Assembly: GCA_949752735.1 (NCBI GenBank)
Contig: OX457037.1
Span: 33,356,956-33,420,955, forward strand
DNA length: 64,000 nucleotides
Reading direction: 5' to 3'
DNA from: Lumbricus terrestris
Lineage: Eukaryota; Annelida; Clitellata; Crassiclitellata; Lumbricidae
Shown here: in pieces, positions 18,701 to 54,367 of the stretch
Position numbering within the stretch: position 1 is the stretch's first letter
Layout: the number at the start of each line of letters is the position of its first letter
Made by a program: the position numbers and the translations under genes
The notes under the pieces: generated by a model
The model's input: only the letters and a program-made list of their open reading frames with translations
The model's database searches: none
Told to the model about the DNA's origin: nothing

Positions 18701-21700
18701 GGAACGAACAAACGAATGAGGGAAAGAAGGAACGAAGGAACGAAGGAAGGAAGGAAGGAATGAAGAAGGAAGGAACGAAGAAGGAAGGAACGAAGGAAGG
18801 AACAAAGGGTGGAAGGAACGAAGGAAAGAAGGAATGAAGGAAGGAACGAAGGAAGGCATATAATCAGTCGTTAAAGTGGTTTGGGCGAGCAGTGGAAATG
18901 CCAAATGTGTGAACCGTGGAAACAATGAAAGAAGAGTTTTGTTGGAGTGCATGTGCATGAAGGTGAGCGCTGAGCGCTGAGCAGTGGGAAACGCAAGCAA
19001 AGAATTTTGAGAGCAGTGGGAACACCGTTCCCATGCATTCCACCCACTTTTGGTTAGAACAGTTCCAATGTCAGCAAAATGCTAGTTGAGCATAATACAC
19101 TGACACCTGAATTTCCCTGAAGCACAACAAATCCATCCATAAAAACAGGCATATTGAAAAACTGAGAGCTCAAAGCCACCATTAAGACGTCTAGTCTCAA
19201 TTCTCATCTCATCTGTCATAAGAAGCAGAACCAAAAAAACAATTTAAATCTGAATTGAACCTCACGTAAACTGTTTATTTATGCCCGTGTCTTTGTCGGA
19301 GGCGCTGAATCTGTGAAGCGTTGTTCCAGTCGTTGCGTTCTCGTAGATCGTTATCTTCTTGCTGTTAGGAACGAACAACGGAGGATTGTCGTTGAAGTCG
19401 GTCACTTCAATCTCAATCGTCGCTGAACTGATGTGCGTTGGGTCGATGTCTTGAACGTAGACGGTCACGTTGAAGAAAGGCAACGTTAGAACATCAAAGT
19501 CAACCGACTACAAAGCAACACGAGAGAATATCAAAGTCAACCAACCAACTATGTTTTTTCAGAAAAGCTAAATATTACAATAGTGATTAGCTTATTTTCC
19601 CCACCTTACGATATGTCTTCGTATGTCTTGCAATGTAAAATCTTTTTGCTCTGGACTGTTCTCAAGGACTGCTTTGGTCAAAACTGGAGCTTTTGCGTTC
19701 ATTGGTCCTGCGCTTTGGAATCAGTTCTCTCTCTATTGACACGTTCTTTATTATTAACTGGTATCCGAGGCATATCTTTCGCTGTCCCAATTTAACCATT
19801 TTCAATTCTCTGGGTCTTTCGCAATGGGAGCGCCTCTGATTGGTTTGCTGTGAGGCGCTATACAAATTTACAGATACAATACAATACAATAAAATAATAC
19901 AATAAAATAAAATAATACAATACAATAAGATAATACAATAAAATAAAATAATACAATACAATAAAATAATAATACAATACAATAAAATAAAATAATACAA
20001 TACAATAAAATAATACAATACAATACAACAAAATAATACAATAAAATAAAATACAATACAATACAATACACTAAAACAATGTCCACACTCACTTCACCTA
20101 AAATAATCAGAAAAAATGGACAAATACATTTCAGGACTGCATAGTAAAGATGGTAAAAAATAAATAAATTAACATTACAAAACTCTACAATAATTAATTA
20201 TGAGAACAGCCTCCAACTTCCTTTGTTACAGTACCTTGAACACCTTGAGAACGCCAGAGTTGGTAACTTCCACGTTGCTCACAGAAAAGAACTCTTGGTC
20301 CTGTTCTTTAAGCATGTAAGTCAGCCGAGCATTGTTGCCAATGTCAAGGTCGGTGGCGGAAACGGAGGTTATGGAAGAGCCTGGAGGATAGCTCTCCGAA
20401 ATGGTTGCACGGTAGACGGACTGTGTGAAGTGAGGAGCGTGATCATTGATGTCATCAATCAGGATTGTAACCGTTGCGCTGGCTTAAAAGAACAGCAAAC
20501 AAAGACTAAAAAGAAGAGCAAACAAAGACTAAAAAGAAGAGCAAACAAAGACTAAAAAGAACAGCAAACAAAGACTAAAAAGAACAGCAAACAAAGACTA
20601 AAAAGAACAGCAAACAAAGACTAAAAAGAACAGCAAACAAAGACTAAAAAGAACAGCAAACAAAGAAGATACCAACCAGACCGAAGTCTCCTATCTAGAC
20701 AGCTTGTACAAAAAAGTCGGTGAAAACTACAAATGGTGCTTTTCAGGAATACTACGTACAAACATGCACTAGATAATTGCCCCAAAACGGGGGATACTGA
20801 AGTCATCATACCTTACTGAAAACTATGAACTTGAACTTCTTTGTCTTTCTTTGCCCCTTTTCCACAAGCATTTGAAAACCATTCTCTTTGATTGTGGTTT
20901 GGTGTCAGGTCGGGAGCACCTCTGAGGAGTTCTCTGGAAGTGGCGCTATATAAATATACGATTACAATTACAATTACTAATTATAATTTTGTTCTTCAGC
21001 CATAAGGAGCTCCATTGGTTTCTCAGTTTCTTTTAGCACATGCTTGTCTCTAAATATAGGGTGTGTTTTGTAAATGTAGGATTGCAATTTAACAATTCAG
21101 CAATTTGCAATTGTTCTAACACAAGTACAATGTGAACTAAACAAATAAAGCCCTTGCTATGTATGTTCAAGGCCGTAGCCAGGATTTGATTTCGGGGGTG
21201 TGTCTTCAGTTTTTTGGTCATTGGCCCAAAATCTTCAGAAAATGTCACCAATTCACATTCTATTTTTTTTACATTTTTCATTTTGGGGTGTTTTCATGGT
21301 TTTATTTCATGGTTTTTACATCATGAGCTAGCAAATGCATTCTATTATTTTTTCCATTTTCCATTTCGGGGGGTGTTCAAACACCCAAAACACCCCCTAG
21401 CTATGGCCTTGGCTATGTTAGTTTCTGTCTGACCTGACATAATACAACTCAACTGACGATTGCGTCATGAAGCTTACATGACTGTGGAGGTGAACCTCTG
21501 TCTTTCGCCTGAACAATGACAAAATACTCGGGCTGAGTTTCACGGTCAAGAGCATTGTTGAGGAGGGTAGATATCAATCCCATGTGCGAGTCAATGGAAA
21601 ACAATGGCTGACTTCCCTTCATTGGAACCTGCTTCAACGAGTAAGTCACAGAACCATTGTTTCCATTGTCAGCATCTGTTGCAATCACGGTCAGAACCGT

Positions 21701-24700
21701 CATTCCTAAGAACGGAAGAACATAATGCATTAATCTCAAAAATCATTCAAAATCTTAACCACAAAACATTGTCAAATTGCATATACAGCTAAGAATATTG
21801 GAGAAATAGTCTGATTAATGTAAATCTAATCATTCTAATGTACAGTTTCTGTACACTAGTTTGCTCATACCTCCATCATACAAAGCCGTGCTTTTTCTGT
21901 GACTGGCCTGGCGGTATGGAATGACCTCTCTCTTGAACTTTGCCTGTGTTCCAGATCACTCTCTGACACATTCTATAAGCACTATAAGACTGTTCTTTTG
22001 GCTGTGCTGGAGTCGGGAGCACCTCTGAGTAGTTTCCTCTTGAAGAGATGCTATATAAAAACTTGAATGAATGAATTAGTAGAAGGCAACTTGCATCTGT
22101 CGTGTAGCTGATGTGTAACAGCTAGAGGATCTAGACTCAGTGCCTAAAGTGTGGAAAAATAATTGCCTGGACGCCCCTTACCTATCCAAAAGAAGTGCCT
22201 GGACGCCCGTTACCTTTCCAGTCTGTGCTCGTCAATAAGTGGCTGGACGGCGTTCAGATTTTAAAACAAGTGCATGGACGCCGTCCATGACCGTCCAGGC
22301 ACACTTTAAGCCTTGGATCTAGTTGAGCAACAAGTCGACACAATGAGTGAAAACCAAAAGATTCTTACATCGTTGTCATTTGTCAACAGTCAAAGCCATA
22401 GAATCTTCAAACACTCTGCGAGTTCATAGAATCAAATCAATTTCCAGCCATGACAGAATTTAGCATTTAAGTACAATCTTGTCTGCATAATTTGCAGCTG
22501 TTTCTCTTACACCTGTCTCACCTGATTTTTAATGATACCTGCATTTGTTTCACCTGTATTTGTTTCACCTGCATTTGTTTCACCTGTATTTGTCTCACCT
22601 GCATTTGTTTGTCTCACCTGTATTTAATTGTCTCACCTGTATTTGTCTCACCTGTATTTAATTGTCTCACCTGTATTTGTCTCACCTGTATTTGTCTCAC
22701 CTGTATTTGTCTCACCTGTATTTGTCTCACCTGTATTTAATTGTCTCACCTGTATTTGTCTCACCTGTATTTGTCTCACCTGTATTTGTCTCACCTGTAT
22801 TTGTCTCACCTCCATTTGTTTCACCTGTATTTGTCTCACCTCCATTTGTTTCACCTATATTTGTCTCACCTGTATTTGTTTCACCTGTATTTGTCTCACC
22901 TCCATTTGTTTCACCTGTATTTGTCTCACCTGTATTTGTCTCCCCTGTATTTATTTCACCTGTATTTAATTGTCTCACCTGTATTTGTTTCACCTGTATT
23001 TAATTGTCTCACCTGTATTTGTCTCACCTGTATTTGTCTCACCTGTATTTGTTTCACCTGTATTTGTCTCACCTCCATTTGTTTCACCTGTATTTGTCTC
23101 ACCTCCATTTGTTTCATCTGTATTTGTTTCACCTGCATTTGTCTCACCTGTATTTGTTTCACCTGTATTTGTTTCACCTGTATTTGTCTCACCTGTATTT
23201 GTTTCACCTGTATTTGTTTCACCTGTATTTAATTGTCTCACCTATATTTGTTTCACCTGTATTTGTTTCACCTGTATTTGTCTCACCTGTATTTGTCTCA
23301 CCTGTATTTGTTTCACCTGTATTTGTCTCACCTGTATTTGTCTCACCTGTATTTGTTTCACCTGTAATTGTCTCACCTGTATTTGTTTCACCTGCATTTG
23401 TTTCACCTGCATTTGTTTCACCAGTATTTGTTTCACCTGTATTTGTCTCACCTGTATTTGTCTCACCTGTATTTGTTTCACCTGTAATTGTCTCACCTGT
23501 ATTTGTTTCACCTGCATTTGTTTCACCTGCATTTGTCTCACCTGTATTTGTCTCACCTGTATTTGTCTCACCTGTATATGTCTCACCTGTATTTGTCTCA
23601 CCTGTATATGTTTCACCTGTATTTGTCTCACCTGTATTTGTCTCACCTGTATTTGTCTCACCTTTATATGTCTCACCTGCATTTGTCTCACCTCTCACCT
23701 GTATTTTCAGTTATTGTCTCATCTGCAATTGTCATACCTGCTCTCGAGTGTTCTGGAATCTTCCCAACCAGTCGGTTCCTGTCAAACACTGGAGCATTGT
23801 CATTGACATCCTTTGGCATGACCCTGACTTCCGCATATCCGGTCAGTGATGGCTGGTACTGATCCAGTTCATCATGGGCTAAGACATTGAAATTCCAGAC
23901 CGGCCTGCCACGAGTCTGGTCGCGATCAAGACTGTGCGTGAGATAGACTTCTCCCGTGTGGTCGTTGATAAAGAACGTTCCTTCGTCAGCAAACTGACCT
24001 GTCAGACTGTAGCGTATGATCGAGTTTCGATCTGTGTCTGGATCGGTCGCTCGAACCTAAAAACCAAGCATCAGTGTCAAGGTTCAGCTCCGTCGAACAT
24101 TAACCTTATAACCTATAATAACCTAAAGGACTCTCTCAGGAGATACTAGTAGTAGTTGCAGTTTAACGCCACTGTGTGATAAAAAAAAGATCATTAGCAA
24201 CGCCCTCCTCCTTTATCCAGGCTTGGGACTGGCACTGGCAGAGTGCAACCAGTGGCAGAGTTCTCAGGAGATACTTCTTCCTAAGGCTCCACTGAAGCAT
24301 TTTTATTCAGCTAAAACAAGAAATGATTGGCCTATTAATTACCAATAATTATCATAGCAAGATTAAGAGTGATGAAGCACAAGCAATTGCACTGCTTATA
24401 TATTCTTTTGCATGTGATTTTAAGTGACTTTTCGGATGATCATGAAGCTATGATTATGTTATGCATATAAACGATTGTAAGTTATACCTCTCCACTCTCA
24501 TGCACCCAAGTAATGATTATATAATTTTAAATTCCTTCAATAAACAAAAATAGTATTTGTACAAATATTAACAGTTGTATGTTACGCTGGTTTGAACAGG
24601 CTGCTGCCTGTATTAAACTGCTTTCATGAGATAGTAAACCAGGCTGTTGCGAGAATTTTTTACACTTTTGGATTGCCATTTTGAACCCAGCACTTAAAAC

Positions 24701-27700
24701 GCCATAGGCAGAATTTCAATTTGATCTGATTTTTTGCATTGTGTAGTGTTTCAAAAACACAGTCAAAAATAAAAAAAAGCATAATTTTGATACTGTACTT
24801 ACCTCATCACTCTGGCTTATACAGATAATCTGTGACAAGCAAACCTTCGCATAGCCTTACCTTTATTCCATCTGCATCTGAAAACTGTTGCCAATTTATT
24901 CTAATCTGAAAACTGTTACACAAGTCTAATCTAATTTAATATAATCTAATCTACTCTAATCAAATTCAAAGAATTATAGAGCACCATTAACTTCATGCAC
25001 CAGGCATCAAATGCTGGTTGATTTAAACATACGGTATACCGTATGACAAAATATTCTGTCTAATGGTAGATCAGTGATTACACAGAGGGAGGTTCCACTT
25101 TCATGCAGTGGAACAACACAAGTATTTCATCACAATTATCGTAATTGTATTGTATTGTATATAAGCATTTATAAAGCGTCTCTTACTAGCTATTCAGAGG
25201 CGCTTTCAGTGTGACAGCCCCGAGGTTATATCAGTGATGCAAAGATTTCCCTTTTAGTTTTAAATTACAACAAACAAGTTGCATTTGTAGCAGATATTTG
25301 CTGCGTTGATAACTCACGGATAGCAGATACTTTGGGTTGTTCTTTGATATGCCTCGCTCTTCCTCGATCACATCTGTCACGTTGTAGATAGCGTTGTCAA
25401 ACTTTGGCGGGTTGTCATTCGCATCGACAACTTGGACGAGAACTATTGTTGTATTTGTAAACTTCTCATCAAACACTCGATACACCAAACGATATTCCTA
25501 AACAAACATCAACTACGACCACTAGCTTATTTAATTAATTAGGAATATTTATATAGCTCCTATCAAGACCATGCACCCTGAAGTGCTCTAGGCTCGACTG
25601 CTCAGATAGGACAGTCTTAAGACTAGGTGGAATGACCCTTGGACACTAGGTGAAGTGCCACTGGAAGTCCATTCGATGTTGCTGGGCCAGCGAGCGAGAA
25701 AAGCTCGGCGCTACTTTGCGGAGGTCTGTGAACGAGGGACAAGAAGCTCAGTCTCAACAGATGAATGAAGGGAGCCTTGGCGCAGGACATTTAAGACAGA
25801 ACTGCAACTAGTATAATCCATTTTAATTAATACTTTGCTGATGACATTTCTATAGATGCTAATAACTGCCACTCCACTTCTTCTCATTCTTCTGTTTGAC
25901 TTTACAGCAACTCAAGTCAACTTCGGGTGCAACACAGTGTTTGTAAACTACTGGTTTTGTGCACTTGTGAAGCAGAATCAAACAAAACAATATTACTGGA
26001 CTACACAATACAATGTTGGGTCGGGAGTACTCCTGTCTAGTAGCCTTGAAGGGCACTATATAAATCTCCAAAAATAAATAACGAATGAATGAACACAATA
26101 ACAGAGCAGCATCAAATACAACTAATGAAACCAAAACAGAACAAAATGACACAAGTGCCTTATTAAAAAATAGAAAAAAGAGTGACAGAAAGACAAAGCT
26201 GAATGGCGAGAACTCATACCCTTATGTCACTTTCGTAATCCAAATGACCTCGCACTTTAACCTCACCCAAATCCGGTACGACTTCAAATGCATTGCCTAT
26301 ATTTCCACCAATGATTGAGTACGTCAATCGATTTTCTAAACAAAATAATAATGTTAGCATATTTATCAACAGCTCTGCAAGAAAGATGAGAATATAAAGT
26401 TCATTGATATTCTAAATAGCTTTTGCTAAGGCAATAGCTCAATGAAAATTGGTCATGCAATACAGAGGGGCGCGGTGAGTAGTGGGGGCGTCGTCACCTT
26501 GAAGCCGGAAGGTTCGAGGTTGGAATCCACCTCAAGTCGCTGCATAGGGATCTTGAGCAAGTCCTTCACTCGCAATTGCTCAGCGCTTCGGCGTGAAACT
26601 CCGAGGCAGTGTCCACGCTGTAGTCGGGAGCGCCTCTGAGTAGCAGGCCTGAAGGGGCGCTATAGAAATGGAGAAATAAAAAAATAAGAGAGAGAGCTAG
26701 TTATAGTTAAACACACACAATAAATTTTGTCTGGATAATCACATTCATGCCATTTCTAATATTAAAATGATACTAATGGAAAATTCAAACCTAAAAGTAA
26801 TCATCAGCATAGTTCTAAGATCCTTTGCCCAAACGCTGTTCCATCATCTGGATCATCACATTGATGACAATACCTGGTAGCCCGGTGGTAGGACCATCAA
26901 CATGGAATAGACTTCCTTTGATGCTCAGCTCCCTTTCTAAAACTCCTTCCCAGGCATTCACCTCTCATCTTAACACAGCTTTGTCGGGCTGCACTGGGGT
27001 TGGGGAGCGCCTCTGAGTAGTCCCACTGAAGAGGCGCTATACATATTCACCCAATGAATGAATGAATGAATGAATGAATGAAGAATGATAAATAAAAATG
27101 CAGACGATGGAAACTTCAAATACAGGTTCACCACAACAACAGTTGATAAGGTTTCTCTACATCAATGCTCTGACTTATCATAACAATAGAGTGCATGGTC
27201 TTGCCCTCGTCTTTGTCTTCTGCTGTGATGGAGATGATGACGGTGCCTAGATCGGTATTCTCCGGAACTTGGACTGTGTACAGACGATCCTTGAAATATG
27301 GAACGTTGTCATTCATGTCCGTCACTTGAATCTGTACTTCAGCCTCACCTGAAGCAATAATGCACAATTGTACATTACAAGTTACTTCACAGTTAAGAGT
27401 CTTGTGTAAAGGATTCTAGTACTTTAGAACCCAAGAGTTGAATCTTAGCCATGTTATTTCATTTTATTCTACCATTGTTGAAGCCAATAATGCAGGCAAG
27501 CACATGACTAATCAGAATTCAATAACATAATCTCGAGACATATATAAATATGATTATATTCAGCGAGTGTCGTGAGAATTCAATAATAATATACAATTAT
27601 ATTAGGAAACAATGCAATCTTATATAATATGACTAAACATAAATAAGAATGTGTGTGTGTATATATATATATACATCAATTGGCCCCTCTCTTTGGAATA

Positions 27701-27938
27701 CGCTCTCTCCTTCTATTCGATCTCAACTTCTGACAGGTAATCCCTCCTCCTCATTTTCTTTTCTTAAAACCTATTTTTTCTCTCGTGGCCTTGCGCACTG
27801 GGAGCGCCTCTGAACGGTTCACCCTAGTAGAGGCGCTTTATAAATGTTTTTATACAATACAATACAATACAATAATATATATATGTATATATATATATAT
27901 TACATTAAATATTATGATTTTAGTCAGGTAGCAAGGAC

Positions 27939-28006
<68 letters not shown>

Positions 28007-31000
28007 ATGGCTAGCAACAGATGCTGCCTACCCTGATTAGGAGTACCGGATGGGTAGTGATTTGGTCTGACGGAAGGCGCACCATCTTCAGCAATCACAG
28101 TCACGTAATACTCGTTCTTTGTCTCACGGTCGAACGACATGAGTGTGCGTATGACGCCTGAGTGACGGTTGATGCTGAATTTGTTGAAGTCCGTTCCGGC
28201 CTCTTTGATGCGGTAATAGATCTGCACATAAACAGTTAAAAGTGCGATCATCAACAGCCTCACCTTTGCTCAACAGTATTGTTGTCAGAATGAATTAATC
28301 CCATCAATACAATATCATAATTATCATGACATGGTAGTGAGCAGTTGACGGAATGCACGAAACATGTATAGCATGGATTTAATGAGATGCTGAGTTTTTT
28401 AATTTCTTAACAATGATGCTGTTGCCTTTGGGAGCACTTTCGCCGACCAGGAAACAGGAGATGAGTAGGGTTTTTCCAGAGATTCTGATTTTTATATTAT
28501 AATTAGGTGGTGGTGAAGATCCTGAGGGATCCTGTATACCTCGGGGCAAATAAAAATAATAAAATAATAGTAAAAATAATAATAAAATAATAATAATAAT
28601 AATGATAATGATGATGAAAATAATAATAATAATGATGATGATGATGATGATAATGATCATCATGATAATGATAATAATAATAATAATAATGAAAATAATA
28701 ATACACACCAACAAATAAATAAATACACATCAAATAAATACACACCAACAATGCTAACACTACAAAACGTACCTTTCGGTATTCCTGAAATTCATCTTTA
28801 TCCGTGGCTGTCACGGTGATGACCTCTGCTCCAGGTTCAAGGTTCTCTGCGACGCTGCCTGGATATCGACCGTTCTCATCGAGACCAATGAACTGCGGAA
28901 TCTCATCGTTCTCATCGATCAGATCAATGATCAGACGAGTGTCGTTGTGAAGAGAACTTGTCGCACGATTCTGACGACGAATTTCATTAACAGTTGGATG
29001 TAGATGTATTGCAAATTGCAGAAACAATAATGTCGCAACCATTCACGCTTAAAGTAAATACAAGCAGTGAAAATAGATTTAATGCGAAAGATATTTCTTT
29101 GAATTGCCTTTGGGTTCATAGTTAGGGGTTGTTTCATTTTAAAGACACTGTGAAATATCAAAGATCATTAGCGTCAGTATGTCACCCTCCTCCTTTATCC
29201 GGGCTTGGGACTGGCACTGACAGAGTGCAAACAGTGGCGGAATTTTGTGATTCATGATATGAATGATTCTGGATATAGTTGCACGGCAATAATCGGCAAT
29301 TGCTGCCTTGAGACTTTAACACATAATTAAAAATATAGGCATGGGCGGAGTTTGGTTTCCCAATATTTTCTCGTGCCAGCCCCAAAAAAGTTGATGACCT
29401 TTTTTAGTCGTCTAGTTAAAATCTCATGAAAGTTACTAAATACATATTTACTGGCCGAAAAAGTTGATGACTTTTTTAGTGATTTGGTTGAAAGTTCTTG
29501 GGGGAGGGCAAGCCTGAAAAGGATACCATTTACACGGTAAAAAACATGAATCTTGGACTTCTTGGGAGCCCCCCTTTGCCCCTGATAAACTCCGCTCATG
29601 AATATAGTTTTTTTTAAAAATGCAGGCAATCTATGATCACTCAGTTTACTGAATGAGTGATATCCTAACACCCGAGCGAGATCTGTTAAGGTAGTAATCC
29701 ACAGGAAATGTAAAGTATTATGGGGTATACGGAATCAACATCAAATAAAATTAACATCAAATATCTATAAGCGCATAATTTTATTTTAAAACTAAACATT
29801 CAAGCATGAAAGCTTTGACTCACCGCGGCTTTGATGGTGAGCACGTACTGAGGCAGCGCTTCAAAATCGAGCGTCCTATACGTGAGCAGAACCATCTCGT
29901 TGGTGACGTCATCAATACGGATGTAGAAACTCCGCGGCTGGCCGTTCTGCTCCGGAGTTTCACCCGGTTGAATCACGTAGTGAACGACGGAATCGGGAAC
30001 AGAGGAAGTTGCCTTCAGTCGCTTTATGATTGTGTTAACTGGTACGTTCTCGCTGATGCGCACTGGTATGAGCGCGTAGTCCTCAGCCCACTGTGGATAG
30101 GCGTTGCTCAGCTCGGTTATCTCGATCTCAATGCGTGCGGACGTGCTCTGTGGAGGCATGCCTTTATCACGGGCTTCAACCTCAACAAGAACTTGGTTCC
30201 TCTATAAAAAAGATACCTCAGTCTGTAAAAATTAAGTCCATGTAAAAAGCTCGCTCACTTGAAAATACACCCTGAAACTTTGTCAAATAGTCCTCGAAAC
30301 AGTATTACAAGAACTTGTGGTTGAATCTAAAATGAGTGCATAGTACACCTAGAAATCGTCTAATTGCAAATCATTAAGAGGATCCTAACGATGCTAGAAA
30401 CAAATCAGGAGCATACAAAGAGAATTCAGATTCACAGCCAGAGAGCCATTCACAATAAATGCCTAAATTAACCTACCCAGCAGCTGATCATTGGAAACAC
30501 TGTTGCATATATCTTAGTGAAAACATAACTAACAATAAATACATTCACCATACAAAAAATAACAGTATGCTTCCCATCAAGTATGGTAACTGATATCAAA
30601 AGAGGATAACAGTGTGTCACCTGTGAAGGATATTAACAGTCACTATCCTCTTGATCATTGATCAATGTTTTGCATGCTTTCCACTGGCAATTCCCCTTTC
30701 TAAGACCACCATAATTTAGTATGTAATTATTGGGTGTCCATATTTAGCAGGATTCTTTCTTCCTGTTTTGTAGCTGAAATGTAATTATACATAATGATAC
30801 ATTGTAATACATTGTGGGGTGCGGTGGTATAGTGGGTGGGTATGCTCGTTGCCTTGCAGCCAGAGGGTTGCAAGTTTGAATCCACCTCAAGTCGCCGTGT
30901 AGGGACCTTGGGCAAGTCCTTCACTCGCAATTGCTCAGCCCTTCAGCGTAAACTCCGATGCAGTGTCCGTGCTGTAATCAGGAGCGCCTCTGATTAGATG

Positions 31001-38949: not shown

Positions 38950-39012
<63 letters not shown>

Positions 39013-39312
39013 ATTGGCCCCCATGGTATGGAATGGGCTTCCAATTGGCTCCCAATGTCTTCATGCCATATGCCAAGTGTTTACTTAGATGCATTTTATT
39101 GCAGCCTTAGAACCGTCCTTTTCAGCCGAGGTTGGGTCGGGAGCGCTCCTGAGTAGAACCTTGAAGGGCCAGTATATAAATTTCCGAAATGAATGAATAA
39201 AGAAAACTCTTTGGCAAAAGGCACATTTCACACAACTTGTAAACAGCTAAAATGTCGTAAACAACTCTAATTGCATCAACTACATATCTGCAATTACCAT
39301 CGACACTAACCG

Positions 39313-39375
<63 letters not shown>

Positions 39376-39922
39376 TCTGTGCATATATATACATATATAT
39401 ATGCATCTGTGCATGCATGTATATGTATAATTTACATTTATATCATTTATGAATAGTTACAATATACATATTCATATATTATATAGCACATGTACAAATG
39501 TACATATACATTTATATGTACATATATAATATATATATACCTGGTACATAAATAATGTGTATACCATGCCTTATGATTCTGGTGGGAGTTCCACGTATGT
39601 TTTAATATAGGAGCAACGCATGATATAGCGTGAGACTGGAGTTAGGACGACTGTCTGTCACGTATAATGTCTGTCACGTTCCAGTCACGTCTCAACGTTG
39701 TTTTCCGTCTCGTATTACGGATGACATTTGATTCGTTTCGAACGAGGAGTGGTATACGTCGTTTTAAGACTTGTTGTTTCTCGTCGTTTTAGCTGGATGA
39801 TATTTGTCAGCGCCGCATCTCCTTGCAACGGTGTCGCATGTGAACAACTGAATAGGATATTGTTTCTATATTAGACCTGGGTTTCATGCTGGCTCTCTCT
39901 CTAGACATAGTTGCGTGAATAT

Positions 39923-39956
<34 letters not shown>

Positions 39957-42900
39957 TATAATTTTTATATATATATATTGCAGTATGAAAAATATGCATA
40001 CATATATTTAATATACATTGTATAATTGCATATGTATATATATATATGGATATATTCCATGCTACACTAGCCACATGGTGAGATTGCTGCACAGAGAACA
40101 TCAGAGCACCAATAGTCACTTCCCTACTACCTCACCACAACTACTAACTCTTAATGCACGTTAGATTAAAACAGTGACCGAAATTATACCTTGAATTATG
40201 TCTGTTCCTATGGCAACCGTTTCAGCAATTCCCTGAACAATGTACTGCGACAAGGGAAATGTCGGAAAGTTGTCGTTCATGTCAACCAGATTGATGATTA
40301 GCTGGAAAAGAAACGGATGACAGATGAAAGCATATATATAAATTATATACATATTATATATATAATTATATATATATATATAAATTATATATTATATATA
40401 TATAATATATATATATAAATTACATATATTTAAATTACATATATAAATTATATATATATATATAGTATATATAATATATACATTATACATAATATATATA
40501 TAGTAAAGGCAAATTCAAAAGGGATTGGTATCTGTCAGCATCGTCACCACCAGCCTTCGTATCAACAACTCGTCACTGTTGACAACGTACTGTCCAATAT
40601 TATTCATCTTATCATCCTCAGCATCGAAATTTCCATTATGTAGCTCTAGCATGTAAATTCAAAGCGATGAATCAAAGACGTCTGCTTGGTTCAGCTTGGC
40701 CGAATAACCAGCTACTCTTACAGCTCATATCGCATGCAGGTCTACAAGTAAGTAAGTAAGAATATACATAAAGAAGAGCATTAACAGAATCTCATAAATG
40801 TACATTACTGTCGATCTGACATGAGGAATCAAAGGCAACTCCATACTGGACCACGGTACTCGAAAAACATTTAACAACTGGTAAAAGTTACCAGTAATTA
40901 AATGTCCCTTGACTAATGACAGCGACAATTCATTGTTCAAGAATTCAGGACCTTTCAGTCTGAAAATTTTAAAAAATCTTGAATTTGTGGCCTGTTTTAC
41001 AATTTGTAGAATTTTTTTAACAATATGTGGGTTATAATTACTGGACCTTTTTACATTGACAGCAGATCTTCTGCAATATAAAAAGCAATAAAATGCAAGC
41101 AGCTGCAGCAATTATGTGATAATGTCACAATTTGTCTTTGAGACATTGGTGGCTACTCATTCTACTGACTGACTGACTGACTGACTGACTGACTGACTGA
41201 CTGACTGACTGACTGACTGACTCACTGACTGACTCACTGACTGACTCACTGACTGACTGACACTCATAGCCAAATCCTCAACCATATTCAAAGTTCAAGA
41301 CCCTACTGATTGAATATTCAGTTTAACACTTTTGTGTGCATGTCAGATATCTTCACAGTTGAGTGATTGATTATTGATTGGTTGATTGATCAACTAACAT
41401 CTACTTATTTAAAAAGTTGAAAAGTAAAGAAATAATAGAAATTTTGCGTAGTTTTAAAATTCATCAAAATTTGTAGGATATAAGAATTTTTTAATTCGGA
41501 AATGTAGATTTTAGAACACCATGGCAGCGGTAATCTATAGTACACTGCGTTTGTTTATTAGTGAATGAGTTCCTAGGGCTTTCCACGTGAACAGCTATAT
41601 TACCAAAGGCATATCAAATTACCAATGCAGCGACGTAAAATTATTAATGCTGCTAGATCAAATTTCCAATATAGAGAAGATGAAGTTAATCAAATGACAG
41701 ACACAGAGCCAATTAAATGATCTGGAAGATGTATAGATTTATTGGATGGTCCCCAGAAGTAGCAAAAGGTTCCCACTGCTGCGTGTGTACCATGGATTTA
41801 TTCGTCCACAAGAAGGCATTTAACAACTTTTGTGATTATCCGAAATGGAGTTCGTAAGTTATTTATGCCTACGACGTCGAGTACATGACCTCAGAGGACA
41901 GAGGTCATCCATGTGATGTCGATAATAATAACAAAGACAATATTTCTATTGTGATGAAGCAACAGCAACAGCATGACACAATAAATGACAGCCTTTATTG
42001 CCCCATTACACAATCTGAGTAAAACTGTAATGGGTCTGTTAATTGGAAATCTGTATCAAATGTCTTTGCTTCTTCCATACAAGCAGTAATCTCACACTGT
42101 AAATTCAGCTGATGATACTGGACAAGCGATAATGAGGCTGAGGAGTCATTCAATGTTTCCACTTCAGGGAATGATGACTATAGGTTTTTCACAACTTCCG
42201 AATGGTTCACACATGCGGAATGCATTTAGTTGAGTGATAGAACATTGTACTATATTTTTACATAACTAAAGCCAGATAAAATTATTGTTGATTCATATTT
42301 AAGAATGGTTCACACATGCGGAATGCATTTAGTTGAGTGATAGAACATTGTACTATATTTTTACATAGCTAAAGTCAGATAAAGTGATTGCTGCTTCATA
42401 TTTAAGAATGGTTCACACATGCGGAATGCATTTAGTTGAGTGACAGAACATTGTACTATATCTTTTACATAACTAAAGCCAGATAAAATTATTGTTGATT
42501 CATATTTAAGAATGGTTCACACATGTGGAATGCATTTAGGTGAGTGATAGAACATTGTACTGTACTTCTTATAAAACTAAAGACAGATAAAATGATTTCT
42601 GGTTCATATTTAAGAATGGTTCACACATGTGGAATGCATTTATGTCAGTGATAGAACATTGTACTATATTTTTACATAGGTAAGCCAGAAAAAATGATTG
42701 CTGGTTCATATTTAAGAATGGTCCACACATGTATGCGGAATGCATTTAGGTGAGTGATAGAACATTGTACTATATTTTTACATAGCTAAAGTCAGATAAA
42801 ATGATTGCTGGTTCATATTCAAGAAAAGCCGCCATGCAATGATGTTTGGGGGAATTTCAGCGGTAGATAGGGCTGCCAACCGTCCCGGATTCGCCGGGAC

Positions 42901-45900
42901 AGTCCCGGAATCGGCCCTGTGCGTCCCGTGTCCCGGATTGATCCCAAATTGTCCCGGAATTTGCTGTAGAGACGCACTTCACAAAATGTTCTTAGTTTGC
43001 ACACTAAACTCAGCAAGTTCTACTATGATTTTGCGCTATCTGCTCTAACATGCCTGATGAGTTGTTAGCTGAACGTCGAATGTTGGACAGCGTTAGGATG
43101 AAGTCTTCGAAACGTAGGCTTAACAAGCCACTCACACTCAGTAGCATTGTCTCCTACGTAGGCCTGCTGTCAGTCCGTTTAAAATTACATAGGGCATTTC
43201 AAGTATCACCAAGTTGTTACACATTATTCAAACCGATAACTTAATTAGTTGACATAAATTATTCAGTGATATGGCCTAGAATGGGATATTCTGCAAAGGA
43301 GACGGCAAGAGCAAGATAGGGGTCTAAAGGAGGAATATATTTTAGTAGATTTTAGGTCCAATATTGTAATATAATTGTGCTGACACTAGGGCTGTTTTTA
43401 AGGAATTTTTAGAACTGCACAACTCCTTCTCTACTTTCCCATCCTCCATGGTAAATTACGTCCAATCGGACCTTTTTGATAGTTTTCACTGTACAGAAGT
43501 GCTTACACAATAGCAAAATCCATTTAGAACTGCACATTTTGTGTACAACTGCACGTTAAAAAAGTCCTGGCTGACACAACATTTGTTACATCATGCAATC
43601 ATGTACGTGACAGCGTAAATTGGTGACGGCGTATCGAGTGACTGCAGGCGTCCCGGAAAGGCAAAATCAAAAGTTGGCAGCCCTAGCGGTAGACAGTTTA
43701 AAAAAAGAGGTGAATAGTTGGGTGTCATTAGCATGGAGGTGGGTGATGTCTGACTTAAGAAGTGAGCCAAGTCAAGTACGGTACAGGGCCGTGCTTAACA
43801 TAGGTCCATTCGGTGCGGTGCACCGAATGCCTCTGAGTCCAGAGTTTTGTTGCTATTGGCCAAATGTCTTTTGCGAGTCTCAGTTTTGCTCAAACCTTTT
43901 GTGAAATAAGTAATTGTAAGAAAATATTAATTTAACTAAGTTCACTGACGTTGCGTGCTTGCTTACTGACCCGCTACAGCCGACAAACCACGTAGGCTAG
44001 CATATATCGAACAGCGGGTTTGTGCAAAATGACTAATCTTGTAAGACTGTCGAACGGCATTTTGCCCCCGCTATAATACTTTGCACCGACACTCGAAAGA
44101 CCTTAAACACGGCCCTGGTACGGTAGTGTAAGAGATGAACAAACGAAGTCTAAGAACAGAACAATATGGAACATTGCGAAGAGCATAGATGTAAAAAACG
44201 ATGGAAACGGAATAAAAAACGGTAAAAAACGTCGTTTTTTTCGAAAAAATAAAAAACGACAAAAAAACGATAAAAAACGGAAACGGTAAATAATTTGACT
44301 TTGCTACATCTAAAACCGCATTTTAACCTTGAAAACATTGATTAGGAACCTACTACACGCAGGCTATCTCTTAAATGATGATGTTAAACGATGAAATAAT
44401 GACTTTAGTTAGCTGAATTCTTGAGAGTTGGCGGAGAACATAAGGAATATCAGAAAAAATTAAAATTAAGGAAAATAATAACAGGAAGTAAATGAATAAA
44501 TAAAGTTAAAGAAAAAATAAAAAACGATAAAAAACGATGGGAAAAATAAAAAACGAAAAAAACGACGTTTTTTGGGAGAGAATAAAAAACGTTAAAAAAC
44601 GTTTTTTACATCTATGGCGAAGAGGTCACTACAAAGAGAAGATCAAGACCACAATATGTGTTTTGCCAGAAATGTCTCAATGTTCGCTTGACAAGGTTGC
44701 ATGTATAAAGTCCTCAATGGACATTGTCAGCCTCCTGTCTTAAGGCAAAGAAAATCTGCATCTCTGAGGGAGAGACGAGGGCCTCTGAAAATTTTCTATG
44801 GTAGCAAATTCAGAGAAACATTGAAGGACTCGAACCACAGTCAGCAATGCAAAACAATTTTGGTAAATAACCCAATTGCAGGTTTATCCTCTTGAAATAG
44901 CTTAATATGTCGATGCTTAAAATAGGTTTGCAGATGTTAAACATCCTTGGTAAGAGAAGTAATACGATGATCCATTAGTCTTGTACGTAATTATCTCGTG
45001 TTTTCGATGCACTGTTAGCGGTCCAAAATGGAAGAGAATGGGAGTCCGTACCATTAGAAAACCAATTTTGACATCTTAATCGTAATCTCCACATTTCTAA
45101 AGCGCCACTCGAAAGCCAAGCGCGGGGCACCAGCCAATACACGAGCGCTGCGTTGAGTCAAAAGAGTTGTCCGTAAGAGTAGTCCATGGTGGTCCGGTTC
45201 GACATCCTAGCTCCAAAGACCAAGGGTCAACTTGCAGCTAAGTGATGTTATATGTACTCCAGCGTTTGCAGTTTATGTATGTATGTATGTGCACTTGCTA
45301 TAGCACCCCTTCAAGCTCCCTACTCAGAGGCGCTCCCGACTGCAGCGCGGACACTGCAGCGGAGTTTCACACCGAAGCGCCCAAGCAATTGCGAGTGAAG
45401 GACTTGCCCAAGGTCCCTACGCGCGGCGACTTGAGGTGGATTCGAACCTCGAACCTTCCAACTTCAAGGCTACGACGCCACCACTACACCTCCACGCCCC
45501 ATGTTTAAGGACACTGCATCATATAAAAGATGATTAGTGTCGCCCTCCTCCTTTCTCCTGGCTTAGGACTGGCACTGGAAGAGAACAAACAGTGGTGGAG
45601 TTGATACAAGTACTTCAGTCGTCAGTTCATTTTAATCATCTGTATACATTTATTAGACGTCATATTTACTACGTGAGGAACGGCAACAATTTCAAGATGT
45701 CCTCCTGTCTCAGTGCTGTCTGTTCATTTCGCAGCACTCTGAAAGCTTATTTCCCTGCTGGGTCATATTTTCCACCTCAACTGGCAAAATGGTTTATCGC
45801 AGTTGACTATTACTCCCTCAGTTCTCCACTCCTTTTATCTGATTATAGCCACTCCCTTTCTCTAAGGTCATCTCGTGGATAAGTGCTTGTCTGACTGTCC

Positions 45901-46745
45901 TAGATCCGTCCAGATCTCCTGGAATGGACCACTCATAAAATTAATATCTACATTGACCAAATGACTGCATAAGGATATTAATGGCACTAGGACCTTTGCT
46001 GCAGTGCTGCTGCTGCTGTTGATGATGGTAATAACGCTGATGGCAAAGACCGTGAAGATGCTGGCATTGCACTAATGAAGAGTAATGATTATTCCGGAGA
46101 ACAAACAACGCAAGTTTGCGGTAGTTAAAACTGTATTTGTTGACACGTTCACATGTATGTTCGTGCACTTGTTATAGCGCCCCTTCAAGATTTCTCCGCA
46201 AAAGTGCTCCCGACTACAGCACGGACACTGAATCGGAGTTTCATGCCTAAGCGCTAAGTAATTGCGAGTGAAGGACTTCCCCAAGGTCCAAACGAGGTGT
46301 GGATTCGAACCTCCAACCCTCTTGTTGCAAGGCAATGATCATACCCACTACACCACCGCACCCACATAACCAGACAATGGAACAACAGCTGATGAAATAT
46401 TCTGCAAACTGATCCATTCCGCATAAGATAAAAACAAAACCTACATGACTACATGTATGCAACAACAAAATCGAGACTCTGTAGAAAAACTGTTTTTATT
46501 CTGTCCATGGACATGATGGACTGAGAGCATGTACAATGCACATGTCCATTTCATGTTCAGTTGTTTTCCAAGACCTGGATGGTCGATAACCCACACGACG
46601 TCCAGGTCATACACCTCCGCTTATTTTAGTCGCTTTCTCTGCAGCCAACATATACATAGAGTGGATGCAGCCACCAATTTGGCTTACATATACAGTTATA
46701 CAACATACACACTATGTATAAAATTATATATACAGTATACACTAT

Positions 46746-46778
<33 letters not shown>

Positions 46779-47515
46779 AAGTTTCTTTTCCCCCAAGGCA
46801 ACTGTGCTGAAAGTGCCTCTGAAGAGTCTATGCTGCAAGACAAGAGATGCTCTATAAATTTTTATATACGATACGATACGATACAATATGGCCGATGACA
46901 AAAATTCTGGGCTCCGGAAGAGCAGGCACCAGGATGCTGGTGGGCGTATGCTGTCAGCAGCCTTGCGGCTTCATGAGAGAAAACAAATTGAAATGATAAA
47001 AGTGTGTGTACAAGTCATACGACCATACAACATTATGCTTACGGTAGGTAGGCTATTTAAATAACTGATTTTCATGATTCATTAGAGGCAATATCTACTA
47101 CGTAAGAAGCGGCAATTCCAAGAAGCTGTACCATTAGTGGTCAATTAAAAAAATATCATATCATTTCATCATTAACTTTATATAACTGCCCATGTGCCGG
47201 AGCCCTAAAAGTCACTGGACCCTGGGCAACAATTGCTTCTCGTCACTTCTTGGCGGGTCTGGGAATAATTTTATGCTGTAAACAGAAGACATGATCTGAA
47301 ACAGTTTTCGGATACACGTGCAATTTCTTTTCTTACAAAGTCTGTCTTATTTAAGACAGAGAAATTGAAAGAAATCCAAACCGAAACAGAAGACATATAA
47401 TATAAGTCCATCCATCCTGCCTACAGAGTAACAGTTCTTACAGCCAGAAACGATGATGGCAAAAGAATTCGATAGCAATATATGTTGGGCAGTTTTGGAC
47501 ACACGACACGCACAA

Positions 47516-47546
<31 letters not shown>

Positions 47547-49538
47547 CACACACACTCATTAATGTTCATTAGGATTCATTTCGCTAAATTTGCTATTTTG
47601 GTCTCTCTTCTTCTATTCTGTAACAGTCATGTTACAGTGGCAACACTGTGCGTCTGTCTAGCCGCAATTGGACAGGACACGTGTTGTGTTTTTCGTTCTT
47701 TGGTTTCACTGTTTTCTCATTTACACAGAAACCAATCTATCTGTCGCAGGACTATGTTTTCGTCGGTGCCATCTCATTGCTTCTAAGATAAATAGGTCAC
47801 CCTAATTGGGCGTGACTCCCGCTGTCCCTTTTCGATAAGCCTTTGTATGCCAAGAAGCTGCACCATTGTCTTTGTATGCACCGTCAATTTCAATGTCTTT
47901 GGATCAATGAATGATTGATTGATTGACTGATGTACATACAATAAATAATATCTTATGTCATAATATTATATATATATAATATATATATTATTGTTACTAT
48001 ATTATACATAATATATATATGTATTTTATAATATTGGATATATCTGTTATCAACACATATATGAGGTTAAATCTGTCACTGGCTGCTGACCACATGATGT
48101 GATGCTATGGCTGGTACTTGTACCAATCCTTTCACAGTAATGGAGCATAGACTCAGTGGGCATCGCTCATTCAAATGATGAACATGCATGGGCAGGGCTG
48201 AAAGTGAGCCGGGTCGGTCCAGTTCTGCGACCCGGCATCGATTTTTACGAGACCCGCTGTTGCCGGGTCTCAGTCGGGTCGCTTGTTTACCAAAAATCAG
48301 ACTAAAAAAAGGTCATCAACATTTTTGGCAGAGAAAAAAGAACTTTTCATCGACATTTCGGTCGATGACCAAAAAAGTCATCAGATTTTTTGGCCGGCAA
48401 AAAGATGGAAAATTTTTTCGGCGACACTCAGCAAAAAATCTCGCGAAAGTCAGACCCGGCAACTTTTCCAAACCACTTTCAGCCCTGTGCAGTGTGCATG
48501 GGCATCTGAAGACCATATACCACTTCCCAGCATATACATATATATATATACAGGGTGGGCCAGCATAAATGTCCCGACTTTGCACGCGTATAACTTCGCC
48601 AATTTTTAACATTTATTTATACTTTATGCATCAAATTAAAGGTATTTCACTCTAGTATTATCTCTAAAAAGGTCGAACTGATACTAGTCTCGGTTTTAAT
48701 TATATGCCCGGAACAGCGCTAGCTACCATATTTTGATGTCATTTGTGACGCAACCTGGCGCCGTTGACAGACGATGATCGCGTTTCAATCTTAATTTTAC
48801 GAACTGGTAAGGGATTTAATTCGTTTGAAATGATTAACGAATATTCTAACAGAGGATGGAATAAACAATACCTTGTATTATCTGCTACGGAAAATTAATA
48901 AAACAGGACTTTCTACTTGCAAACCATGGGAATCGGAGCGCACGGCGCTCACATCCGCTAACATTGCTCGTGTGTCCGCGTACATTTGCAGTCAAGACAA
49001 TGACCAGGGCAGGCCCTGCATGCAAATTCAGCGCAAAACAGGCCGTCTTAGAAGCACTGAATAGCGTATTGGAAAAGATTATAGACCTAAAGTTAAAGTA
49101 ATTTGTCGATGAGAAGTCCCACGAACTCTCCAGCTCTTACGCAAAGAAACGACTGGCAGCGTGCAAGCGTCTGAAGCAGCGCATGGCAGTGCACGGCTGT
49201 TGGCAAAATTGAAAGGACGCGGTTTTGCGATTAGAATATATTCATGGTAGGGACCCTACAAACACCCAAAATGATCGTGTCTACGTGCGTTTTAGCAAAA
49301 AACGATAGAATTTTCCCGGGAAACGGCGTCATAATGCGTCAGTAATGACAAAAAACGGTAGCTAGCGCTGATCCAAGTATATAATTAAAACCTAAACTAG
49401 TATCAGTTCGACTTTTTTAGAGATAATACTAGAGTGAAATACCTTTAATTTGATGTTAAAAATTGGCGAAGTTATACGCCTGCAAAGTCGGGACATTTAT
49501 GCTGGCCCACCCTGTATATACCATATACCACTTCCCAG

Positions 49539-49574
<36 letters not shown>

Positions 49575-49601
49575 ATATACCACTTCCCAGCTTATATATA
49601 T

Positions 49602-49653
<52 letters not shown>

Positions 49654-52600
49654 GATTAGCATGTACACGCTAACGGAACTAGAGCACAGCATCGAGATGC
49701 ACATTCGTTGGGTTGTTGGTTGCCAGGTCCATTAGTGCTTCCCATCATCAGCAAACAAACAGCGGATGTAATCGAACCCTGGAAAGACCAGAAGACGACG
49801 GAATAGGATTAGAATTTGATGAAAGGCATATCTCATCGACTAATCCAGTTAGGCATGGTCAGGTGAGGAGGAGCGGGGGGGCAATCGCAGATGAAAGAAC
49901 CAGAATAGCCAAAAGCAGACGTCACCACCACCATCGTCCTCGTCTTCTTCTTCTTCGCAATGATTGAATTACCGATCGCCAATACAACATCCGGTCTTCT
50001 CCATTCCATTACACTGCCTTCGACAACAATGACCAAACAGACCTATCACCATATCAATCAGACAATACACTTCATGCCAGCCACCACCACAGCTGTCGTG
50101 CCAGACTGTAACAATACCCTACATTGCAATACTGTACATAGTGCAATTATTCGTCTAACAATGCTACGTGATCAATTCTATCACCCATAACACTGAACAC
50201 TCTCAATCAACTGACTGTCCAGACAAATCAATGACAGCATTGTCATTAGTGTAAACTTGTGTAATTTATCGACGGCCCAGTAATGCTCCCTTTCTCCTGT
50301 CCCCACATTCCCCTATTATGCCCGTAAACATTCCACTGGACATAAAGCTTCACCAGAAAATCCTGTAAAGCTGCTGCACCTTGTTTATGAAGTGCAGGTC
50401 AAATGCCATCTGTAGAGAATGCAGCGATGGCATCTATGGACTGCTAACCACAAAGCGTTCCACTTTGTGATTTCCTACGGATATACGGGGGTGGGGTGGA
50501 TTGGGGCAATGGTAAACACTCTTGTATAAAGAGCGCAAGGACATGGTATTGCCTCCCGCTAATAAAATCAGCTCAAATCAATTTACTCATAATATTAGTT
50601 TTTCTGAACATACACGTAGGCTATAGTGACAACAATGGCATATATATATATAAAATATATATATATAAAGCAATTAAAAATAATTAATTACCATACTCTG
50701 CAAGAAAATAATACAGTTACTACGTAAAGACACCAAGGAGAAAAACATCACAGACAGACGTGCAGGCAGGCAGGCAGACAGACAGATGTTGTCAAGCAGG
50801 CAGACAGAACGACTGGCATGTAAGCAGCTCGGGAAGGCATGCAGGCAGGAGTCCATACAGCATAGGTATCGGCAACGTGGGGCACGGTGGTGTAGTGGTG
50901 GCGTCGTTGCCTTGAAGCCGGAAGGTTCAAGGTTCGAATCCACCTCGCCGCGTAAGGACCTTGGGCAAGTCCTTCACTCACAATTGCTCAGCGCTTCGGC
51001 GTGAAACTCCGATGCAGTGTCCGCTCTGCATTCGGGAGCGCCTCTGAGTAGAGAGAGCTTGAAGGGGCGCTATAACAAGTGCACATACAAAAATGTCACA
51101 GCAAGCTGACAAGCTATGCATGCAACATATCTCTAAAAACAAAGATCTCAATGCCAAAAGGAGATAAGCAGCACTTATAAAGCAGGCAGACAGATCGACA
51201 GACAGACCGACGGACAGATAAGATTACAACAGAAGACAGAATGGTCTTAGACCTCATAGTCAAAAACAATTACCATCATCACTATGCCTACATACACGAA
51301 TGCACGAATGCACGTGTCCACAACCACACATCGTTATAAATATACATATCAAATAAACAACCGTTAGGGCAAACTATGCCTAAAACACGGGACACTGGGG
51401 ACAATCTAACTCAATCTACTCCCACCAAAGTGAAACTCAATGAGTTCGCTAAACAAGAAGTACCGCCCCCCTGCCATCCCTCCCCCTCCTAACCCTCGAT
51501 CTGTGCATGCTCACCTACTGTATTGGTCATTTGTCGTTCTATTTCTCTGCCGCTTTTGCAGATCAATTTATCTATATGCAGAATTTGCTATGCAGTTCCT
51601 GACATGTTACTAGTTTTACATTTGCGTATACTGCGCCTATTCGCCATTTATGCTGTGGCTCTTGTGCGGTTTGATGGTTTCTTCGTGTAGGCCCACATTA
51701 CTGCATGGGGAAAGGAAAGGAAAGGGAAGGATAGGGAAGGAGAGGAACGAATGGAGAAGGATGGGAAGGATGAGGAAGTGTCTCAGTTCAGTGCTTCTTC
51801 ACCGGTCAGAAGTGACATATTGCTTTAATTGACCATGACAGTGTATTTGCCTTGACCTCCAGTCATTGGTGGCGTTTTAACCCATCAACCAGCAGACAAT
51901 AAATGCCTGCTCAACATGCACTCAGTGGATAAATGGATGAGTGCCATCTCCTACCAATGACAGCCTGTTCTATAATAGTGGCGCTGCTCTGCTACTGTGG
52001 GAGGTGTGTATGCTACCACCTTCAGTGGGAAGGAAGGAAGACCTGTCATTCGCTAATCAACACGATCAGCCAGAGGCTAAATGCTCATCCAGAGGTAATG
52101 GATCTCCAAAGTTTCTGCAAAGCCAAAACCTACATCTTCATGGTGTATCTGTAACCGATATTCACAATTTCGATAGGCCTATAGCTAATAAATTATTATG
52201 ATCAATGATGCATATAACCAATTCTTGAAGCAAAGCATACACTTACTGTCACTTAGTTGGTGCCGATGGATAGTTAAAAAGATTTAGAAAGCTGCAGAGG
52301 CAAACATAATCAGATAATGTTAAGCGAAAACAGTTTGAGGGAAACTGAAGGAACCAAGACAACACAGAAGAATGAAGTGCTCTAAACACTTACGTTGTTT
52401 TAAAGACTTAGGGTACAATGTTTTAAAGACTTACAATGTTCTAAAGACTTACATTGTTCTAAATACTTACATTGTTCTAAAGACTTATGGTACATTGTTT
52501 TAAAGACTTCCCATATATTATTCCAAAGACTTGCATTGTTCGAAAGACATTACATTGTTCTAAAGACTTATGGTACATTGTTCTAAAGACTCATATTGTT

Positions 52601-54242: not shown

Positions 54243-54367
54243 ATTGTCTACTAGAACAATGTACAGTTAATAGAACAATGCACAGTTAATAGAACAATGC
54301 ACAGTTAACAGAACAATGCACAAAATTAATAGAACAATGCAGTTAATAGAACAATGCACAGTTAAGG
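54243..54367. repeat. 19-bp tandem repeat upstream of exon 1
   Basis: About six units of agaacaatgcacagttaat. On the sense strand each holds attaactgtg, weakly branch-site-like. It begins about 60 bp from the acceptor. Confidence 0.85.

Follow-up and report, generated by a model that had tools for sequence, protein, structure and literature searches.

How did three minisatellites in one gene of the earthworm Lumbricus terrestris come to adjoin exons, each with a splice signal inside its repeat unit? Most of the window (the whole stretch of 64,000 nucleotides that was analysed) is filled by a classic cadherin gene, CadN, which lies on the minus strand and was recognized with Pfam by its cadherin repeats, a laminin-G exon, and a C-terminal cadherin motif. 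A total of 7985 candidates were scored and 968 protein relatives were found; among the best 120 listed, the top three were annelid, namely Helobdella neural-cadherin (53% identity, with 96% of the query covered), Owenia, and Dimorphilus, on which ground amphioxus was rejected as the source. The exon chain came out ordered in tblastn with annelid cadherins, and from it a model of 34 exons and 67 boundaries was set in the window, in which the exon end at 27191 is arbitrary. Further 5', beyond the edge of the window, are two additional CadN exon blocks, whose distances from the first modelled exon are about 16 and 29 kb. Eight arrays are listed between these blocks and that exon, and none was found at an exon edge in the seven of eight 10-kb stretches that were read. 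The arrays and the exons next to them are the following:

20483..20666, minus strand: array A1, 8 units of 23 bp, TCTTTGTTTGCTGTTCTTTTTAG; the true 3' splice site is formed by its last unit (..TTTTAAG).
22500..23737, minus strand: array A2, 15-bp unit GTGAGACAAATACAG (TRF span 22537-23693); the diverged first unit is the true donor.
52375..52738, minus strand: array A3, 18-bp unit GTAAGTCTTTAGAACAAT, some units being 23 bp long; it begins at the true donor of the exon ending at 52739.
20235..20482, minus strand: cadherin exon with the last A1 unit as its acceptor (Pfam PF00028, 4.7e-7; Helobdella 874-958).
21478..21705, minus strand: exon flanked by the introns that hold A2 and A1 (Pfam 6.7e-15), joined without gaps to both neighbors against Helobdella, as judged by eye.
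23738..24056, minus strand: cadherin exon ending ..GCAG at A2 (Pfam 7.2e-13; Helobdella 692-801).
40190..40301, minus strand: exon next after the A3 intron (Owenia 625-663).
52739..52955, minus strand: cadherin exon ending ..CAAC at A3 (Pfam 6e-9; Owenia 548-615).

As originally predicted, arrays with units of 15, 18, and 23 bp adjoin CadN exons at these places, and the junctions are backed by protein homology. With a slash marking the junction, the join reads ..IPEHSRAG/MTVLTV.. across the A2 intron and ..RGSPPQS/SSATVTI.. across the A1 intron, both gap-free against Helobdella by eye, and the A3 junction is bridged by Owenia matches, the alignment across it being judged in the same way. The splice signal is present within the unit of all three arrays, A1 representing a 3' splice site and A2 and A3 representing 5' splice sites, and both site types are affected. 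The A1 unit is a pyrimidine tract followed by AG, and its consensus contains no A other than that of the AG; it is repeated exactly eight times in 184 bp, and the final unit stops at the acceptor AG, the exon beginning at 20482. The A2 unit matches the 5' splice-site consensus CAG/GTGAGA, most copies reading CAG/GTGAGA or CAG/GTGAAA, and the array comprises about 75 units, 68 of them 15 bp long and 7 of them 19 bp. In the A3 unit the signal is GTAAGT, and both edge units of the array have the GTAAGT form. The arrays had been described as being in register with the true sites, which holds for the edges of A1 and A3 and is loose in A2, where the diverged first unit, that is, the true donor CAG/GTATGA at exon end 23738 (12 of 15 positions identical to an array unit), is separated from the regular array by degenerate units spanning about 31 bp. 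They had also been described as having unrelated units; the unit lengths do differ, but A3 has the word TAGAACAWTG in common with the arrays at 42200 and 54252. Within A2 (22500-23737) there are internal block repeats, such as H-I-J-I-E-E occurring twice in the unit order, a sign of multi-unit duplication.

The window also holds repeats of other kinds. The dispersed element end GAGCGCCTCTGA was matched 29 times, with up to 2 mismatches, vs 2.06 expected, at sites such as 5774, 19828, 27005, and 51036; some of these are followed by a short tandem tail, and the repeat at 19869-20080 comes after one copy. An open frame at 4863-5789 on the plus strand (308 aa) has by eye the appearance of part of a retroelement protein, and its inner 265 aa gave no Pfam match. 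In a separate stretch, L010 (about 3237-6009), a 2.8-kb array of AGAGTGGGTGGAA lies in a CadN 5' intron, away from exon edges.

One explanation of the pattern is a uniform origin of arrays throughout non-coding DNA, in which case a gene so rich in repeats and exons would merely have its expected share of them at exon edges; being in register would then be automatic once an array touches an exon. For the edge test, 10 arrays in the gene with a period of 13 or more and about 3 copies or more were hand-picked, most simple and AT-only repeats being omitted and three repeat-of-repeat arrays retained. Compared with random intronic placement, 2 of the 10 were within 5 bp of a boundary vs 0.17 expected (P 0.012), and 3 were within 45 bp vs 0.81 expected (P 0.047), values that the post hoc choice of the pattern weakens in favor of uniform origin. 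The coverage test points the same way, since local tandem context was detected at 2 of the 33 donors and 1 of the 34 acceptors vs 9.1% and 11.6%, respectively, of 6000 random intron positions, so that 3 of the 67 boundaries stand against 9-12% of intron positions with no coverage excess in the gene over whole introns; without positions in or near listed arrays, the control drops to 1.2% (donors) and 2.7% (acceptors). Also consistent with a uniform origin, 3 of the 18 listed CadN arrays adjoin an exon when the upstream introns are included. On the other hand, random founders covering the splice core would give 0.014-0.126 junction arrays in CadN, where three were seen (Poisson P 5e-7 to 3e-4, post hoc). 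The nulls disagree, and the window statistics by themselves are ambiguous; because the pattern was picked after being seen, the window alone is insufficient to decide.

The search was therefore read at the scale of the worm's own genome (1,056,305,194 bases in 331 contigs), with a pattern of a 9-letter word occurring three times exactly, the copies 4-30 bases apart. Four words yielded 30 arrays: the donor words CAGGTAAGT (32 matches, 7 arrays) and CAGGTGAGT (83 matches, 13 arrays), and the control words CAGTAAGGT (39 matches, 3 arrays) and CAAGTAGGT (9 matches, 7 arrays). Both control words were built on the dinucleotides of CAGGTAAGT, and the array count of CAGGTGAGT was set against these alone. 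The flanks of all 30 arrays were inspected, those of L056-L058 on one side only. A homology-proven junction, inside the array or at its edge, was found in 6 of the 30:

L051, donor word: donor of a Wnt exon; the last 30 coding nt and the donor are repeated at 32-34 bp (Pfam 2.2e-28).
L056, donor word, other strand: acceptor of a second Wnt exon; the acceptor and 8 coding nt are repeated at 31 bp (2.3e-25).
L059, control word: acceptor of a Rab11 exon; the acceptor and 14 coding nt form a 38-bp repeat that extends for about 2.5 kb.
L070, donor word: donor of a CTNNBL exon (5e-18).
L076, donor word: donor of a GPCR exon (7.4e-12).
L075, donor word: donor of a CLC-3 exon; 14 exon-like nt with one mismatch (PDB 7.8e-12; Pfam 0.0034, below the cut-off).

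The pattern thus recurs at exon edges of unrelated genes in the same genome and cannot be put down to an accident in CadN alone. By word type, the proven junctions were 5 of 20 for the donor words and 1 of 10 for the control words. Five further arrays had weak or ORF-only junctions, L057, L071, L081, and L082 with donor words and L069 with a control word; if these are included, the junction cases become 9 of 20 vs 2 of 10, which are small numbers. There was no Pfam or NCBIfam match for L057, which we take to be NBAS; the only Pfam match of L081, presumably FAM3, was ILEI at 0.029, and a PDB search gave nothing; for L071, L082, and L069, a Pfam match was absent. In the 19 remaining arrays no junction was found, and three of these are by eye near a likely exon edge (L052 at about 19 bp, L061 at about 28 bp, and L055 at about 72 bp). 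Six proven junctions among 30 arrays, including one among the 10 with control words, tend, as a bare count, to speak against a uniform origin. Together with the founder expectation in CadN, we consider a uniform origin unlikely.

Several candidates were rejected as junctions. L047, which is outside the 30 arrays, and L052 at first had the appearance of sense exons at the array; for L052, however, the other strand gave the higher score (11.2 vs 8.9), L047 scores on both (13.2 sense, 10.7 other), and neither has a Pfam match. The open frame of L018 terminates in a stop at the array, the exon donor of L055 is about 72 bp off by eye, and the 20-bp array of L061 ends, also by eye, about 28 bp short of the acceptor of an ankyrin exon. 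This neighboring exon of L061 (C12:16729300-16730400) has a Pfam value of 5.5e-6. In L052 (C4:76526600-76529200), the other strand has a likely acceptor that the 24-bp array precedes by about 19 bp, and the unit of this array holds, by eye, the branch-point-like word CTATTAAC. A mechanical coding score found coding sequence at the 5' edge of 5 of the 13 CAGGTGAGT arrays vs 2 of 13 at the 3' edge (Fisher 0.19), a comparison that gave the 3' side the benefit of more offsets and of both strands and in which the 3' end of L090 was not reached; among the control arrays, 2 of 9 had a coding edge, the Rab11 array being outside these nine. Raw match counts were discarded as a test of donor enrichment, being inconsistent between words, with reversed words that resemble simple repeats: the counts vs the reversed word were 271+240 vs 4076+3907 for AGGTAAGT, 32 vs 160 for CAGGTAAGT, and 83 vs 23 for CAGGTGAGT. 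From about 100 listed places of the 511 AGGTAAGT matches, 14 loci were hand-picked, one per distinct-looking array.

The direction of copying can be read from the exonic bases inside the units. In 4 of the 6 proven cases (both Wnt, Rab11, and CLC-3), the units carry 8-30 coding bases. In the array at the Wnt donor, AAGTCTTGGCTCAATGGGCACTCACGACAG, which codes for PSLGSMGTHD, precedes the GT in seven units with at most one change, and the eighth unit is partial. Three full units in the part of the Rab11 array that was read contain ATATTACCGTGGTG, the 14 bases with which the exon begins; the identity of this exon is given by Pfam (Ras, 9.3e-21) and PDB (Rab-11A, 6.2e-38). Because an intronic repeat is a very unlikely source of conserved coding bases, these four arrays must have originated from junctions, and the exon-edge origin proposed in the original prediction is borne out here by arrays outside CadN. 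For the CadN arrays themselves we infer the same origin, and with it the direction of copying, by analogy, because the copied exon part there is 0-4 bases (0 nt in A1, 4 in A2, and about 3 in A3). The units of L070 (CTNNBL) and L071 end in GCTCAG, identical to their exon ends, and the first A2 units end in GCAG, as does the adjoining exon; these matching ends may reflect either copied exon bases or microhomology, fitting both alike.

The coding bases in the units of the two Wnt, Rab11, and CLC-3 arrays bear equally on the opposite course of events, in which a splice site was recruited from a unit of a pre-existing minisatellite carrying GTAAGT, or a pyrimidine tract and AG, and replaced the old site. 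They argue against it, as does the GTAAGT form of both A3 edge units. In its favor, the true A1 acceptor and the true A2 donor are weaker than most of their copies, and TAGAACAWTG is common to A3 and arrays elsewhere in the gene. This word was matched 21 times in the window vs 0.68 expected, with no match in the window outside the following three arrays:

42200-42825: array with TAGAACAWTG.
52381-52742: array A3.
54252-54365, plus strand: 19-bp array in the neighboring intron, complementary to A3 in the sense RNA.

That A3 shares a motif of 10-12 bp with two arrays touching no exon counts against a junction origin of this array. Taking both sides together, recruitment seems quite improbable to us. 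The array at 54252 is not at an exon edge, the closest modelled exon starting at 54184. It flanks two cadherin exons together with A3, in opposite orientation, and the duplex of both in the sense RNA had a predicted energy of -104.5 kcal/mol vs -48.9 (sd 4.4) for shuffles, an energy that no control attained (200 shuffles, 300 unit permutations, and 400 random segments). The score of their unit alignment was reached by 44 of 6000 shuffles, which is not significant after 55 pairs. Such pairing could loop out the exon pair, in a possible circular-RNA or exon-looping arrangement.

Splice sites in A1-A3 were scored with a generic position matrix. Besides the true donor, A2 has 78 GT sites, 47 of which score at least as high as it does, and A3 has 35, with 8 reaching the score of the true donor, while all 7 extra acceptors of A1 score higher than the true one (3.7-4.6 vs 3.0). 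Of the 79 A2 donors above the threshold, including the true one, 76 leave a stop and 3 are stop-free in frame; a stop also follows from 10 of 10 extra A3 donors and 7 of 7 extra A1 acceptors. As nearly every duplicated CadN site would give a premature stop if used, a role of the copies in alternative splicing is unlikely, and the suggestion that the arrays are a route to alternative boundaries finds no support in these counts.

The same stops are what a splicing-linked decay switch would need, and they are one of the points that favor selection for the repeated sites, either for such a switch or for extra U1/U2AF landing sites. Others are the intact state of the copies, GT being retained in 66 of the 68 15-bp units of A2, and the predicted pairing of A3 with the array at 54252 around two exons. 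Several other positions of the A2 unit are, however, as constant as GT, so homogenization suffices; by itself it already predicts that GT should be no better conserved than they are. In addition, the donor words gave 7 and 13 arrays vs 3 and 7 for the control words, with no clear excess. Selection, which the original prediction had offered as one cause, is not supported, and we regard it as very unlikely.

The reading that we prefer, with a probability of about 0.75, is that the arrays are mirages, that is, minisatellites founded by a short tandem duplication including the junction and then expanded. The founder would be a tandem duplication of about 15-38 bp spanning the exon-intron junction, probably produced by replication slippage or microhomology repair. 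The copy adjacent to the exon would remain the working splice site, and the copies on the intron side would be free to multiply and to be homogenized by slippage or unequal exchange. Such arrays would persist as long as the exon-proximal site continues to be chosen, through exon definition, so they are probably tolerated rather than useful.

Mirages were reportedly first described in NAR in 2002. Human introns composed of tandem arrays carrying splice signals are said to have been reported by Zhuo et al. in 2007 and proposed to make new introns; the worm arrays differ in that existing junctions are copied inside existing introns. In the available parts of the reports on amphioxus, mirages are minisatellite-like duplications of exon-intron boundaries in the Adh3, globin, TnC, and PGBD5 genes, with units of 10-72 bp in Adh3 (PMC3087553, PMC3902484). 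As in the worm, they involve 5' and 3' sites and several genes of one genome, as far as those parts go (PMC3087553, PMC3902484), and both site types are hit in the globins BflGb6 and BflGb9, according to the portion available (PMC3087553). The amphioxus type is further marked by undisturbed regular splicing and by arrays whose length is unstable between alleles or cells, an instability described for Adh3. The host differs, the worm being an annelid and amphioxus a cephalochordate. Judged from the same partial texts, the CadN arrays also differ in that their units contain almost no exon sequence, in that three arrays are found within one gene, and in copy number, with about 75 units in A2 vs 6 and 3 in two BflGb6 haplotypes (PMC3087553, PMC3902484). 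Intron gain by tandem genomic duplication has been described, and resembles the worm case in that the duplication copies splice signals; in the worm one junction is multiplied and a new intron is not demonstrated, a difference drawn from the accessible part of that paper (PMC4974935). Closer to the host, intron 1 of an earthworm metallothionein gene has minisatellites, and copied splice sites are not described in the part of that source available (PMC12783039). Our searches of the open-access literature turned up no report of such arrays from annelids or outside amphioxus, save the human tandem-array introns cited in PMC3087553. The worm arrays are most likely a structure of the mirage kind, here extended from lancelets to an annelid.

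A broader proposal, which we consider possible without holding it probable, is that splice junctions act as a general source of new minisatellites, with a bias of founders toward exon edges in phyla as distant as lancelets and annelids, at donors and acceptors alike, and that a large part of the minisatellites in the genes of this worm arose in this way. The origins of minisatellites are mostly obscure since their founders get erased, and a junction array retains the founder, its coding half being anchored by the exon. The arrays also pose a puzzle for splicing, as one weak exon-proximal site has to prevail over dozens of copies that equal or exceed it in strength and that would, in most cases, introduce a stop if used. 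In a genome rich in junction arrays, one could measure how such arrays are founded, how this step is biased, and what it costs splicing.
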